Source: Terrilactibacillus sp. S3-3
Lineage (GTDB): Bacteria; Bacillota; Bacilli; Bacillales; Sporolactobacillaceae
Direction: 5' to 3'
DNA: 64,000 nucleotides
Assembly: GCA_030437565.1 (NCBI GenBank)
Contig: CP129291.1
Coordinates: 806,001-870,000, forward strand
Position 1 is the first letter of the stretch; every line of letters starts with the position of its first letter. The notes beneath the pieces were generated by a model. It had not been told where the DNA came from. It ran no database searches and saw only the letters and a program-made list of their open reading frames with translations. Shown in pieces: positions 13,998 to 53,795 of this stretch. Made by a program: the position numbers and the translations under genes.

Positions 13998-14226
13998 CTT
14001 TTGGTAACCTCCTGCTAACAAGATTAGAGTGAATACAAAATGCTCAGGTTTTGACGCGGTTGCCCGTTTTTTTTTTTCACGCGGCCAGTGCGGCATGAAA
14101 AACTTTTTTTTTTCGGCGCGGAGGCCTATCGATGCCGGTGCCGGCATTTGACAGTGTGAGTCCGGTGTTTGGGTCATCATCTCGAACACTAGATAATTGT
14201 GCCGCTTCGGCAGAAAGTCGGGCAGT

Positions 14227-14624
14227 CAGCCGGTATCCCGACGCACAGGACGAGCTAGTGCCGGCGTTTCGACAGGAAGTCGAGCATTTAGCCGGTAATC
14301 CCGACGCACAGGACGAGCTAGTGCCGGCGTTTCGACAGGAAGTCGAGTAATTAGCCGGTAATCCCGACGCACAGGACGAGCTAGTGCCGGCGTTTCGACA
14401 GGAAGTCGAGCATTTAGCCGGTAATCCCGACGCACAGGACGAGCTAGTGCCGGCGTTTCGACAGGAAGTCGAGCATTTAGCCGGTAATCCCGACGCACAG
14501 GACGAGCTAGTGCCGGCGTTTCGACAGGAAGTCGAGTATTTAGCCGATAATCCCGACGCACAGGACGTGCTAGTACCGGCGTTTCGACAGGAAGTCGAGT
14601 ATTTAGCCGGTAATCCTATATTCA
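14227..14624 (+). repeat. 63-bp tandem repeat, about six copies
   Basis: A 63-bp unit starting GCCGGTAATCCCGACGCACA recurs at about 14290, 14353, 14416, 14479 and 14542, with partial units at the ends, nearly identical throughout. Each unit is itself two related halves of about 31-32 bp, both containing ACAGGA, GAGC and GCCGG. It contains the small palindrome CGACAGGAAGTCG. Because 63 is a multiple of three, open frames exist on both strands (for example PDAQDELVPAFRQEVE), but one unit has a TAA and there is no convincing start, so I treat it as noncoding. It lies upstream of the dehydrogenase gene. Confidence 0.9.
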
Positions 14625-15327: not shown

Positions 15328-15445
15328 GGACCCTTTCCTGCTGAAAGTTCTCAGAAGCACCTGCCGTGCAAAAGTCAAAGCTTCGACTTGAATATGGAGA
15401 CGACTTATGATAGTTTATAAATGTAAAATTTAATAAAACTTGTTG

Positions 15446-15537
15446 CACTAGGGGAGCCGGAGCAGGCCGGCTGAGAAAAAGACCCGTTGTCTTTGACCCT
15501 TTTTACCTGATCTGGATGATGCCAGCGTAGGGAAGTT
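15446..15537 (+). ncRNA. TPP (thiamine pyrophosphate) riboswitch
   Basis: The conserved THI-box elements are all present in order: GGGGAGCC at the 5' side, GGCTGAGAAA, GACCC..TTTGACCC, ACCTGATCTGGATGATGCC and AGCGTAGGGAAG. Binding of thiamine pyrophosphate should favour the terminator at 15559-15594 and turn off the thi operon. Confidence 0.95.
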
Positions 15538-15558
15538 GCGTGATAAAAAAAGACATTC

Positions 15559-25265: not shown

Positions 25266-26740
25266 AATGTGTTCGGCCACGAAAATGGAGCGTTCGGCCA
25301 CCAAAATGGAGCGTTCGGGCACGAAAATGGAGTGTTCGGCCTCCGAAATGGAGCGTTCAGAGTCGAAATGGAGCGTTCGGGCACCGAAATGGAGTGTTCG
25401 GCCACGAAAATGGAGCGTTCGGCCTCGAAATGGAGCGCTCGGGCACTGAAATGGGGCGTTCGGTCTCGAAAATGGGGCGCTCGGGCTCGAAATGGAGCGT
25501 TCGGAGTCGAAATGGAGCGTTCGGGCACCGAAATGGAGCGTTCGGCCACCGAAATGGAGCGTTCGGGCACCGAAATGGAGCGTTCGGGCACGAAAATGGA
25601 GTGTTCGGTCTCGAAATGGAGCGCTCGGGCACCAAAATGGAGCGTTCGGTCTCGAAATGGAGCGCTCGGGCACCAAAATGGAGCGTTCGGGCACCAAAAT
25701 GGAGCGTTCGGCCACGAAAATGGAGTGTTCGGCCACGAAAATGGAGCGTTCGGGCACCGAAATGGAGCGTTCGGCCACGAAAATGGAGCGCGCTCGGTCT
25801 CGAAATGGAGCGTTCGGGCACCAAAATGGAGCGTTCGGGCACCGAAATGGAGCGTTCGGGCACGAAAATGGAGCGTTCGGGCACGAAAATGGAGCGTTCG
25901 GCCACGAAAATGGAGTGTTCGGAGTCGAAATGGAGCGTTCGGGCACCGAAATGGAGCGTTCGGTCTCCGAAATGGAGCGTTCAGAGTCAAAATGGAGCGT
26001 TCGGGCACCGAAATGGAGCGTTCGGGCACGAAAATGGAGCGTTCGGGCACGAAAATGGAGCGTTCGAGCACCGAAAGGGAGCGTTCGGAGTCGAAATGGA
26101 GCGTTCGGGCACCGAAATGGAGCGTTCGGGCACGAAAATGGAGCGTTCGGGCACCAAAATGGAGCGTTCGGGCACGAAAATGGAGCGTTCGGGCACCGAA
26201 ATGGAGCGTTCGGGCACGAAAATGGAGTGTTCGGTCTCGAAATGGAGCGCTCGGGCACCAAAATGGAGCGTTCGGTCTCGAAATGGAGCGCTCGGGCACC
26301 AAAATGGAGCGTTCGGTCTCGAAATGGAGCGCTCGGGCACCAAAATGGAGCGTTCGGGCACCGAAATGGAGTGTTCGGCCACGAAAATGGAGCATTCGGT
26401 CTCGAAAATGGAGCGTTCGGGCACCAAAATGGAGCGTTCGGGCACGAAAATGGAGCGTTCGGCCACGAAAATGGAGCGTTCGGGCACCAAAATGGAGTGT
26501 TCGACTCAAAATGGAGCGTTCGGGCACCGAAATGGAGTGTTCGGTCTCGAAAAATGGAGCGCTCGGTCTCCGAAATGGAGTATTCAGTCTCGAAAATGGA
26601 GCGTTCGGGCTCGAAATGGAGCGCTCGGGCACCAAAATGGAGCGTTCGGGCACCGAAATGGAGTGTTCGGCCACGAAAATGGAGCGTTCGGGCTCGAAAT
26701 GGAGCGTTCGGCCACGAAAATGGAACGTTCGGGCGGCTTT
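25266..26740 (+). repeat. Array of about 70 units of 20-22 bp (AAATGGAGCG core)
   Basis: The unit is typically AAAATGGAGCGTTCGGGCAC(G), 21 bp, with 20- and 22-bp variants that differ only in the linker (GGCCACG, GGTCTCG, GGAGTCG, GGGCACC). Because most units are 21 bp and lack stops, five frames on both strands stay open for hundreds of codons (for example MERSGTK repeats), which is a composition artefact. It separates the divergent pepF and DUF2871 genes. Related arrays lie at 43930-44220 and 53643-53795. The remaining gap sequence up to 26992 shows no gene. Confidence 0.95.
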
Positions 26741-27825: not shown

Positions 27826-28839
27826 CTGCATGAACTGTCGCTCATGGCGGAGATTATAAAAATCGTTGGTGAAGACGCCCGGTTAAACGGGATTGATAGG
27901 GTTAATAAAATAGAAGTTGTCGTTGGCGATTTATCCAATGTGCTGCCGGATGCTCTGGAATTGGCCTTTTTTTATTTTCAAAAAGAGGCTTCCGGTCTGC
28001 TTAGCAAAGATGCGGAATTAAAAATCATCCGCGAAGCGGCGAAAGCAAAATGTCAAACATGTCTGTTTGAGTTTGCGCCTGACTACAGAATCGCACTTTG
28101 TCCAAAGTGCGGCCTTCCGAATTGTGACCTTATTTCCGGTGAAACATTCAGAGTTGAACCTATGAAGGAAGTGACAAGTTTGAGAATTAAGCTTAAAGAA
28201 GATGTGTTGAAAGATCTAAACTTGACAGCTGATTTCAACAGGAAGACGTTCGCAAAACATAGAACGCTTGTCATTAACTTAATGAGCTCTCCCGGCGCAG
28301 GAAAAACGACTTTACTCGAACAAACCGTTAAATCGTTAGCGAATGAATTTGCTATTGCGGTGATTGAAGGGGATTTGGCAACCGATCAGGATGCGGAAAG
28401 ACTGCGCTCGCTCGGAATTAAAACGGTTCAGATAAATACGGTCGGCGGCTGCCATCTGGATGCAAGGATGATTGCCAAAACATTGCCGGAATTTGAGCTG
28501 GACGAAATAGATATTCTTTTTATTGAAAACGTTGGCAATTTGGTTTGCCCGTCCGGCTATGATTTGGGGCAAGATTATAAAGTCGCCGTTTTAAGCGTTC
28601 CTGAAGGCGATGATAAGATTTCCAAATATCCGATTATGTTCAGACGTACGGACTTGACGATCATCAATAAAATTGACATTCTTCCCTATGTATCTTTCGA
28701 TTTAGCGAAAGCGAAAAAAGATTTGCAGGCGATTAATCCAGTGGCTCAATTTAAATCATTATCCGCTCGAACAGGCGAAGGTATGGAAGACTGGATCGGC
28801 TGGATTAAGGAAGCTTATCGTCAATGCATGAAGCATTAA
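27826..28839 (+). CDS. HypA-HypB fusion, hydrogenase nickel insertion protein
   Basis: The product delivers nickel to the [NiFe]-hydrogenase large subunit. Residues 1-115 are HypA: a zinc site of CQTC (Cys76, Cys79) and CPKC (Cys92, Cys95). From about residue 120 the HypB GTPase follows without a stop: MSSPGAGKTTL is the P-loop, then EGDLATDQDAERLR, GGCHLDARM and NKIDILPY. The best start is an unusual CTG at 27826: GGAAGG lies 8 bases before it and only this start gives the invariant MHELSL with the nickel-binding His2. A GTG at 27817 would add three residues and overlap the SD. HypB lacks a His-rich N-terminus. Confidence 0.85.
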   Translation: MHELSLMAEIIKIVGEDARLNGIDRVNKIEVVVGDLSNVLPDALELAFFYFQKEASGLLSKDAELKIIREAAKAKCQTCLFEFAPDYRIALCPKCGLPNCDLISGETFRVEPMKEVTSLRIKLKEDVLKDLNLTADFNRKTFAKHRTLVINLMSSPGAGKTTLLEQTVKSLANEFAIAVIEGDLATDQDAERLRSLGIKTVQINTVGGCHLDARMIAKTLPEFELDEIDILFIENVGNLVCPSGYDLGQDYKVAVLSVPEGDDKISKYPIMFRRTDLTIINKIDILPYVSFDLAKAKKDLQAINPVAQFKSLSARTGEGMEDWIGWIKEAYRQCMKH

Positions 28840-31123
28840 AAATAATTGTGAAGGGAAAGGTTCAGGGCGTCGGCTTTCGTCCATTTGTCTACTCCCTGTC
28901 ACGGAAATATCACCTTAATGGAACCGTCCAAAATAATCTTGATGGTGTCGTTATTCATGCTGAAGGCGATCAAAGACAGCTGGAGCAAATGGTAAAAGAG
29001 TTAAAGCTGTCTCCGCCCAAATTGGCCAAAATCAGTGAGATAACCGTTCATCACGTTCAGCGGGCCAATTATAAAAAATTTACAATTGCGGAAAGTCAGA
29101 AAAAAGGCGATTCCGTCCCTTGGGTACCTGCTGACGCCGCTGTTTGTGAACAATGCTCAAAAAAAATGAGGGACCCGCAAAACCGACGCTATCAGTATCC
29201 ATTCATTAATTGCACGCAATGCGGGCCGCGCTATACGATGATTAATCATCTGCCTTATGATCGGCCGGGTACGACAATGGCGCGGTTTGAAATGTGTCCA
29301 GATTGCCGGGCGGAATATGAAGACCCGTCGAATAGAAGGCATCATGCCGAACCCGTTTGCTGCCCGACCTGTGGACCGATCGTGACGCTTTTAAATCAGA
29401 CGGGGGAATCATTGGCCGAGAATCAGCCTGCCATCGCCCGAACGGCCGAATTGCTGGAACAAGGCTGTGTTATTGCCGTCAAGGGGATAGGCGGTTATCA
29501 TCTTGTCTGTGATGCTTATCAGGAAAGCGCCGTCGGCCGAATAAGGCTAAGAAAAAACCGGCCGCAAAGACCGCTGGCTTTAATGGTCAAGTCATTGGCT
29601 GTCGCCAAAAAATTTTGTCATATTTCTCGTCGCGAAGAAGAAATTCTGACTAGTCCGGAAATGCCGATTGTTATTTTGCAGCAAAGAAGGGAGGGGATGC
29701 TGCCTGATAATATCTCCCCCGGCTTATCAACACTTGGCATCATGCTGCCTTACACACCTCTCCACCATCTGTTATTCGAGAATAATAGACTGGAGTGTTT
29801 GGTAATGACAAGTGCCAATCCTTCCGGCCTGCCGATGCCCTATAAAAACCAGCTGCGGAGAGCGTTTACAAACGATGTGTGACTATATCTTGACGCATAA
29901 CCGGGAAATCGCTCATCCCGTTGATGATTCAGTTGTTCAATGTGACGGAGAACAGGTGCTGTTCTTGAGACGTGCCCGGGGTTTTGTCCCGGATCCAATC
30001 AAAACAAATGCCGATGTTGATCAAATCATTGCTTTAGGCGGGGACCAAAAAAGTACTTTTGCCGCCGGCAAGCAAAACCAGATTATACTGAGTCCGCATA
30101 TTGGCGATCTAGGCAGTGAAGAAATGATCCACTCCTTTGAGGCACAGCTTCAATTTTTAAGACTTGGCTGGGAATTGAGGAAAAATACTTGGCCGTTGAT
30201 CGGCACCCTTTATATGCGTCGGCGGCTGTTGCGGGCGGATCAGACGGAAAGGTGATCCCCGTTCAACACCACCATGCGCATCATGTCTCCTGTATGGAAG
30301 ATAACGGACTTAAGGAGCCTTGCCTGGGCATTATACTAGACGGCACCGGTTATGGCGAAGACGGTCGGATTTGGGGATTTGAATTTTTATATGCCGATGC
30401 GACTTCCTTTGAAAGGCTGGCGCATTTGCGCTGTACGCCGCTTCCAGGCGGCGAAAGAGCAGTGAAAGAACCGTGGAGAAATGCGGTCGGTATGCTCATG
30501 CATTACTGGCCGCGGAAAGGAAAAGAATTGGCTGCGGAGCTTTTCCCAGAAAAGTTAAAAGAAATAAACATTTTAGACCACATGGTTCGCCAGCGGATCA
30601 ATACGCCGATGGCCGGAACGTGCGGCCGCTTATTCGATGCGATCAGCGCCATTCTGGTATCTATCTGTTCGAAATCAACGTATGAAGGAGAAGCGGCGAT
30701 AAAGCTGTCCGATTATATGAATCGAAGCGAACCTGAACAATCGGAGGCGATGATCTATCCCTTTCATCTCAGCACGACGAGCGCCAATCCTATTCAACTT
30801 GATCTTTCGCCAATGATTTACCAAATCATTCAGGACAAACTGGCCGGGCACGCTGTTACAGAAATCATCCGAACCTTTCATCGCACGCTTGTTGCCTGCT
30901 GTACAGATGTGGTCTTGAGACTAGTGAAAGACAGACCGGAACTCAATCGTTCAGTCGTGCTGTCGGGCGGATCTTTTCAAAAAACATTTATCTGTCCGGA
31001 GAAATTCGCCGGCGTCTTCAAAATGAAGGATTCAAGGTCTACACACATCAACGGGTGCCGTGCCATGACGGCGGTTTGTCATTGGGCCAAATCGTCATTG
31101 CCTCGCGTGTCCTTAAAAAATAG
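28824..31123 (+). CDS. hypF: Carbamoyltransferase HypF, frameshifted
   Basis: HypF makes the thiocyanate carried by HypE from carbamoyl phosphate, the source of the cyanide ligands of the hydrogenase iron. Domains in order: acylphosphatase (GKVQGVGFRPFVYSL, residues 1-90), two zinc fingers (CEQC..CTQC and CPDC..CPTC), the YrdC-like domain (GCVIAVKGIGGYHLVCDA), and the Kae1-like carbamoyltransferase (HHHAHHVSCMEDNG, LDGTGYGEDGRIWGFEF). The start ATG lies inside the hypAB 3' end. Breaks occur near 29880, 30180 and 30980; the true C-terminus reads VPCHDGGLSLGQ with stop at 31121. Confidence 0.93.
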
Positions 31124-31148
31124 CATTTTTGAAAGCAGGTGAATGCTT

Positions 31149-43929: not shown

Positions 43930-44220
43930 TAGAGGACGCCCCATTTTTGTTCGAGCGCCCCATTTTGGGTGAAGTTGCTCCATTTTTGTTTGAAGTCACC
44001 CCATTTTTGTTTGAAGTCGCTCCATTTTGGGTGAGGTCGCTCCATTTTGTTTGAAGTCGCTCCATTTAGGGTTGAAGTCGCTCCATTTTGAACTGAGGTC
44101 GCTCCATTTGAGCTGAAGTCGCCCTATTTGAGGTAGAGGTCGCTCCATTTTGTTTGAAGTCGTCCCCCATTTGAGGTAGAAGTCGCTCCATTTAGGTTGA
44201 AGTCACCCCATTTGGGTTGG
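43930..44220 (-). repeat. Array of 20-21 bp units (CTCCATTT core, second locus)
   Basis: About 13 units of the type GTCGCTCCATTTTGTTTGAA, i.e. the reverse-complement core AAATGGAGC seen in the large array at 25.3 kb, with different linkers. It lies between the convergent yihY and P-type ATPase genes. Confidence 0.9.
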
Positions 44221-53639: not shown

Positions 53640-53642
53640 GAC

Positions 53643-53795
53643 AAATGGAGCAACTTCTGCTCAAATGGGTTGACTTTGACTCGAAATGGAGCAACTTCTG
53701 CTCAAACGTGGCGACTTTGATGGAGCAACTTCTGCTACAAATGGAGCGACTTTCGACTCAAATGGGTCGACTTTGACTCGAAATGGAGCGACTTC
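53643..53795 (+). repeat. Short array of AAATGGAGC units (third locus)
   Basis: About seven units of roughly 20 bp with AAATGGAGCAACTTCTGCTC or AAATGGGTCGACTTTGACTC as the pattern. The core is shared with the arrays at 25.3 and 43.9 kb; the linkers differ. Confidence 0.85.

Follow-up and report, generated by a model that had tools for sequence, protein, structure and literature searches.

There is good support for reading the tandem array at positions 25266-26740 as a single locus of a non-coding, helically phased satellite that is dispersed over the genome and specific to its lineage. The window in which it lies, the whole stretch of 64,000 nucleotides that was analysed, corresponds to bases 806001-870000 of a single contig of 3,600,297 bases and includes three arrays:

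25266..26740, plus strand: family A array, ~70 units of AAATGGAGCG plus a 10-11 bp linker
43937..44219, minus strand: family B array, ~13 units, AAATGG[A/G]GCG with an ACTTC-type linker
53642..53794, plus strand: short degenerate family B array, ~7 units, between a YfkD-like gene and a polysaccharide-deacetylase gene

Beyond the first-pass annotation, which had described the largest array, the analysis added the two smaller arrays, the spread of the repeats over the genome, their zoning near the origin and a core that hardly varies across loci.

The window array and its families

That annotation had read the largest array as about 70 units of 20-22 bp, and we identified 70.4 copies with a period of 21 bp at 25271-26734 of the plus strand (Tandem Repeats Finder). 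Each unit consists of AAATGGAGCG and a variable linker of 10-11 bp, for a period of 20-21 bp. Within 25266-26740 there are 54 exact copies of AAATGGAGCG and 66 of AAATGGAG; the reversed core does not occur, and about 0.005 exact cores are expected from order-1 composition. Cores are spaced 21 bp apart in 50 cases, 20 bp in 13, 22 bp in 2 and 19 bp in 1, with a single 41-bp spacing at a mutated core. The few recurring linker types reported earlier were borne out by counting: among 69 matched linkers, we identified GGGCACC(G) 23 times, GGCCACG and GGGCACG 10 times each, GGTCTCG 9 times and GGAGTCG 3 times. A CRISPR array was rejected because the linkers, 5-8 nt long, fall into a small number of types that recur and are not unique spacers. 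The array separates a pepF-like gene on the minus strand from plus-strand genes that lead on to hyp genes, its flanks being PepF-like and hydrogenase-maturation genes.

Across the genome, the exact core occurs 331 times in forward and 249 times in reverse orientation, compared to 2 and 0 for a reversed-pattern control. DNA searches with one family A and one family B array yielded ~46 loci after merging within 5 kb; the rows of this locus map were compiled by hand, and rows overlapping listed loci were left out, as were other 21-bp motifs that adjoin some arrays. The arrays were grouped by consensus into families A-E, and at least two families of other sequence share the period of ~21 bp:

Family A: consensus AAATGGAGCG-TTCGG
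Family B: consensus AAATGG[A/G]GCG-ACTTC
Family C: consensus AAATGGCGCG-TTC
Family D: consensus AAATGATGCG-TTC
Family E: consensus AAATGACGCG-TTC
Family F (other sequence, ~21-bp period): CAGTTTAGGCCCGAGGTTC, in another register TTAAACTGTAGAAC; 14 loci
Family G (other sequence, ~21-bp period): GTAAATAAACCGTGAAAAGTT; 31 loci

The F and G counts may be too low because each family was searched with one array. In an even sample of the genome (20 stretches of 20 kb), 16 of 31 tandem arrays had a period of ~21 bp or of a multiple of it up to four.

Spacing, core conservation and predicted curvature

The proposed period of two helical turns proved genuine, and it is common to repeat families of other sequence. 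Among 733 spacings of 17-25 bp in 22 A-E arrays, 161 were 20 bp, 552 were 21 bp and 11 were 22 bp (mean 20.79), so that 713 were 20 or 21 bp and 20 bp was far more common than 22 bp; spacings outside this range, mostly of 40-42 bp where cores are missing, were set aside. Repeats of higher order, with lengths of 41, 62, 82-83, 103-104 and 124 bp, come close to whole multiples of 20.7. The stronger claim, that the core faces one side of the helix throughout, holds approximately: with a helix of 10.5 bp, the mean spacing of 20.80 bp drifts by ~14 bp over 70 units, whereas with a helix of 10.4 bp it drifts hardly at all (arithmetic). The variance of pairwise sums of unit lengths was 5.84, compared to 8.47 after shuffling (25 runs), but this reduction is driven mainly by dimeric arrays and 3 runs fell at the opposite extreme; outside dimeric arrays, phase keeping beyond the length of one unit is weak. 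Most A and B arrays have a minor secondary peak at 10-11 bp in the autocorrelation of WW dinucleotides; D, E and G have a weak one or none.

Within units, AAATGGnGCG is near-invariant and the linkers vary. The conservation of the ten core positions was 0.92-0.99, compared to 0.74-0.93 for the linker, and the core was the more conserved part in 11 of 11 A, B and C arrays tested. The variable linkers could reflect inherited founder variation instead of relaxed constraint. Their order had been described as shuffled by frequent unequal exchange. The array at 831 kb contains a duplicated six-unit block (the longest in 500 shuffles was 4), which fits block exchange, but the order of units and linkers exceeded the shuffle threshold at no lag.

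Intrinsic bending, also proposed earlier, agrees with the strong curvature predicted for A-E by a dinucleotide wedge model with values reportedly from Bolshoy and colleagues (1991). Over 125 bp, the ratio of end-to-end distance to contour length was 0.55-0.90 for A-E vs. ~0.95-0.97 for shuffled sequences. Among permuted 21-mers with the period kept, the five consensus units tested from A, B and C ranked at fractions of 0.00-0.06, whereas F (0.33) and G (0.20) were not unusually curved. Because F and G are unremarkable by this comparison, the support from this one model for strong predicted curvature extends to A-E only.

Chromosomal position and comparison with other arrays

GC skew was positive in the sampled stretches between 0 and 1.82 Mb and negative in those at 1.98 Mb and beyond. 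Bases 513-764 have a weak match to the IstB profile, below the family cut-off, which fits a candidate dnaA; given the skew switch and this dnaA-like match, the origin is placed near the contig start. At most 0.9 Mb from it lie 41 of the 46 A-E loci (binomial p = 2e-8, assuming independent loci) and all 31 G loci, compared to 9 of 14 F loci, of which those near the terminus are at 1.46, 1.65, 1.92 and 1.94 Mb. Less than 0.2 Mb from the origin, A-E and G have just two loci each. A-E and G are concentrated in the origin-nearest half of the chromosome and F is not; the restriction of the A-E and G sites to one zone is as in a macrodomain-type site family. Among 18 arrays, similarity was correlated neither with chromosomal distance nor with the difference in distance from the origin, and local spread along or between the arms was rejected on this ground as the cause of the zone.

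All examined arrays are intergenic and occur in every gene orientation. Of 14 loci with a Pfam match on both sides, 11 are co-directional (array along the genes in 5 and against them in 6), 2 are divergent (the window array and the F array at 375 kb) and 1 is convergent (278 kb, where the right-hand Pfam match is below the family cut-off); at 8 other examined loci a family match was missing on one or both sides. The Pfam searches covered all flanks of 22 of the 29 listed arrays. The neighbours are ordinary genes, among them those for release factor 3, MreB, HPr kinase, an ammonium transporter and glycosyltransferases. Arrays have no consistent orientation to genes; a genome-wide listing with orientation relative to replication, as the first-pass annotation had proposed, produced the many loci and, by eye, no consistent orientation to replication. 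Among array loci, no common flank was found except for one IS-like pair and some short matches made up of 21-bp repeats of other kinds or of short inverted repeats, and a common carrier element was rejected for this reason.

By similarity, no match to the array was found in 25 genomes of the same family, nor in plasmids or phages; a plasmid or phage origin was rejected accordingly. Among 397 genomes of the order, the exact core pair occurs only in the source genome and in G126, and a looser core pair in 10, mostly as single matches. The F motifs were absent from 57 other genomes, and the G motifs from 38. In three viral contigs, the motif pair occurs by eye as isolated pairs in coding-like sequence, and these were discarded.

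A blind sample covering 90 stretches (1.74 Mb) of other genomes yielded 26 non-coding arrays with periods of 12-30 bp, of which 11 had periods of 20-21 bp; of those with at least 3 copies, 3 of 5 did. Because several of the 11 arrays have only about two copies, this is suggestive. One blind-sample array, in the relative G008, has the related core AAATGAGCG. In two other G008 arrays, GGGAC/AGGAC motifs are spaced 21, 21, 11, 19 and 32 bp apart (sum 104), near whole helical turns except that 19 is off by ~2 bp. These arrays are at L187:350-900 and L188:5150-5830, one of them, by eye, just upstream of ORFs resembling IS3-family transposases. In another relative (G068, L184:9780-10010), ~21-bp repeats upstream of a plasmid-replication-initiator-like gene are, by eye, probably true iterons.

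A pattern scan is uninformative on core conservation because its stretches were selected for the core, a bias that the blind sample does not have. By eye, of its 20 named stretches, L024, L027, L029, L036 and possibly L023 contain non-coding arrays, L021, L028 and L030 coding-like repeats, and the remainder isolated pairs. The arrays of L024 (Viridibacillus soli), L036 (Bacillus sp. BA3) and L027 and L029 (Salsuginibacillus halophilus) are short, ~20-21 bp in period and non-coding, with the AAATGGAGCG core and other linkers; some directly follow a terminator-like hairpin. A literature search, with subscription papers mostly outside its scope, found no description of these repeats; among the papers listed for the motif, none dealt with such arrays by title.

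In Subirana and Messeguer (2019, PMC6749651), prokaryotic satellites are defined as at least four regular tandem repeats of 10-200 nt, and dispersed non-coding satellites are described in Leptospira interrogans and Methanocella conradii, together with a short-repeat family in Chloroflexus aurantiacus. With 70.4 copies of 21 bp, the window array falls within this definition, and with 46 A-E loci and cores in three frames, the family qualifies as dispersed and non-coding. Like the satellites described in PMC6749651, the arrays are species-specific and non-coding, with related arrays at many chromosomal loci; they differ in their period (20-21 bp vs. 37-69 or 14 bp), in having more loci and several families of the same period, and in their near-invariant core and origin-proximal zone.

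The direct repeats of plasmid iterons and partition sites are spaced by about two helical turns, a geometry that suits cooperative binding from one side. The present arrays, unlike these, are chromosomal, with many loci and up to ~94 units; no replication or partition gene was seen beside the arrays at the examined loci, and no initiator family was found among the tested flanking ORFs. Macrodomain sites of the matS/MatP type are motifs confined to one chromosomal zone, the terminus, as single sites, whereas here the motifs form arrays and are origin-proximal.

Possible origins and functions

The leading explanation, at even chances in our assessment, is that the satellite is amplified by recombination and held in helical register by a constraint at the DNA level, through bending and/or a binding protein. 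Unit copies would multiply and be shuffled by slippage or by unequal exchange of unit blocks, and the constraint would hold the core roughly on one side of the helix. It would most likely consist of intrinsic bending and the cooperative in-phase binding of a putative nucleoid or architectural protein, in a working mode like that of plasmid iterons or centromere repeats, yet chromosomal and at many loci. For such a constraint we counted the narrow spacing, the core conservation, the same period in F and G, the G008 spacings, the curvature of A-E, the origin zone, the cores in three frames, the null results of RNA folding and the six-unit block, and against it the lack of curvature in F and G, the weak long-range phase and the lack of an orientation rule. 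A function could not be general, because the arrays are, by similarity, absent from the 25 genomes of the same family. A role in DNA bending and binding is plausible at even chances, with a neutral satellite close behind.

Under this second explanation, which has a substantial though lesser chance of being correct, the arrays are a neutral or selfish minisatellite: intergenic DNA spread by slippage and recombination, with no cellular role and with 21 bp as an inherited accident or the result of a duplication bias. Lineage-specific arrays, the duplicated unit block, the higher-order repeats and the occurrence of all gene orientations speak for it, intergenic placement is equally predicted by it, and dispersed prokaryotic satellites exist (PMC6749651). 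Conversely, the core columns are specifically conserved, one period extends across several families, A-E and G are zoned while F is not, and similarity is uncorrelated with distance.

Dispersed non-coding satellites are reported to be rare in prokaryotes, and their rarity in bacteria and the origin-side bias hint at a role in shaping or organising the chromosome. In a more far-reaching version of the constraint, which we regard as rather unlikely, the arrays would be a chromosome-organising system, in which in-register repeats form a one-sided filament (of a protein family or of bent DNA) at dozens of origin-proximal loci, families A-E, G and F mark different zones, and Bacillales lineages reinvent phased arrays with new sequences. 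Several two-turn families, a near-invariant core and zoning would make nucleoid shaping by phased arrays testable, as well as the alternative that duplication itself favours whole helical turns.

It is improbable that the arrays derive from plasmid iterons or from the ends of mobile elements, such as IS21-type terminal repeats, multiplied without the element. PMC10122671 describes direct repeats at IS21 ends, two per end and 23 bp apart in IS5376, which resemble the arrays in lying about two turns apart, and near-identical IS21 copies are present in the genome; however, no array unit was found beyond istB in three copies, the IstB matches lie elsewhere, the array loci have no element and no shared flanks, there is no plasmid or phage match, and no replication gene adjoins the window array.

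Still less probable is a structured RNA or transcription signal. By eye, family A linkers contain TTCG-NNNN-CGAA half-palindromes, and one C-family fold reached a z-score of -2.29, but the other 9 of 10 folds (z between -1.29 and +1.05) were near shuffled values, showing no RNA structure beyond composition; the window arrays had no Rfam match, and by eye the palindrome is missing from the linkers of B and F. One promoter-like and no terminator-like site lay near the window array, at or below chance, and a promoter or terminator role was rejected.

A repetitive protein is most improbable. The long ORFs noted at first on both strands are real (520 aa on the plus and 536 aa on the minus strand), but both strands are open, the plus frames because the unit contains no stop, and the cores are spread over all three frames (20/20/28), with 20-bp units shifting the frame, which led to rejection of the coding reading and supports the non-coding status assigned earlier.

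The probability that the assembler expanded or collapsed the arrays is negligible. Some features do fit an unpolished long-read assembly: the single contig is 75.98% complete, its genes are fragmented, and four IS21 copies show 15 substitution columns and 14 indel events among them, with 11 of the indels in homopolymers of 3 or more. But the arrays, dozens of them, differ in strand, in unit type and in their unique flanks; an indel rate of about one per kb cannot yield the 20/21 mixture, which tracks linker type; and short AAATGGAGCG arrays occur in named, independent assemblies. Exact copy numbers are provisional because of the homopolymer indels.

Many genes in the window are split by apparent frameshifts, e.g., HypF over 28824-31142, as also fits an unpolished assembly. 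In a 2.93-Mb genome, a CRISPR-like array (L191:1-971) with exact 31-bp repeats ~67 bp apart ends beside an IS21 copy. Elsewhere in the window, a 63-bp tandem array of 6.5 copies (14206-14616, minus strand) has six matches to the Bacillaceae-1 sRNA family and is apparently a tandem-amplified member of it, and a TPP riboswitch is located at 15440-15551 (plus strand).
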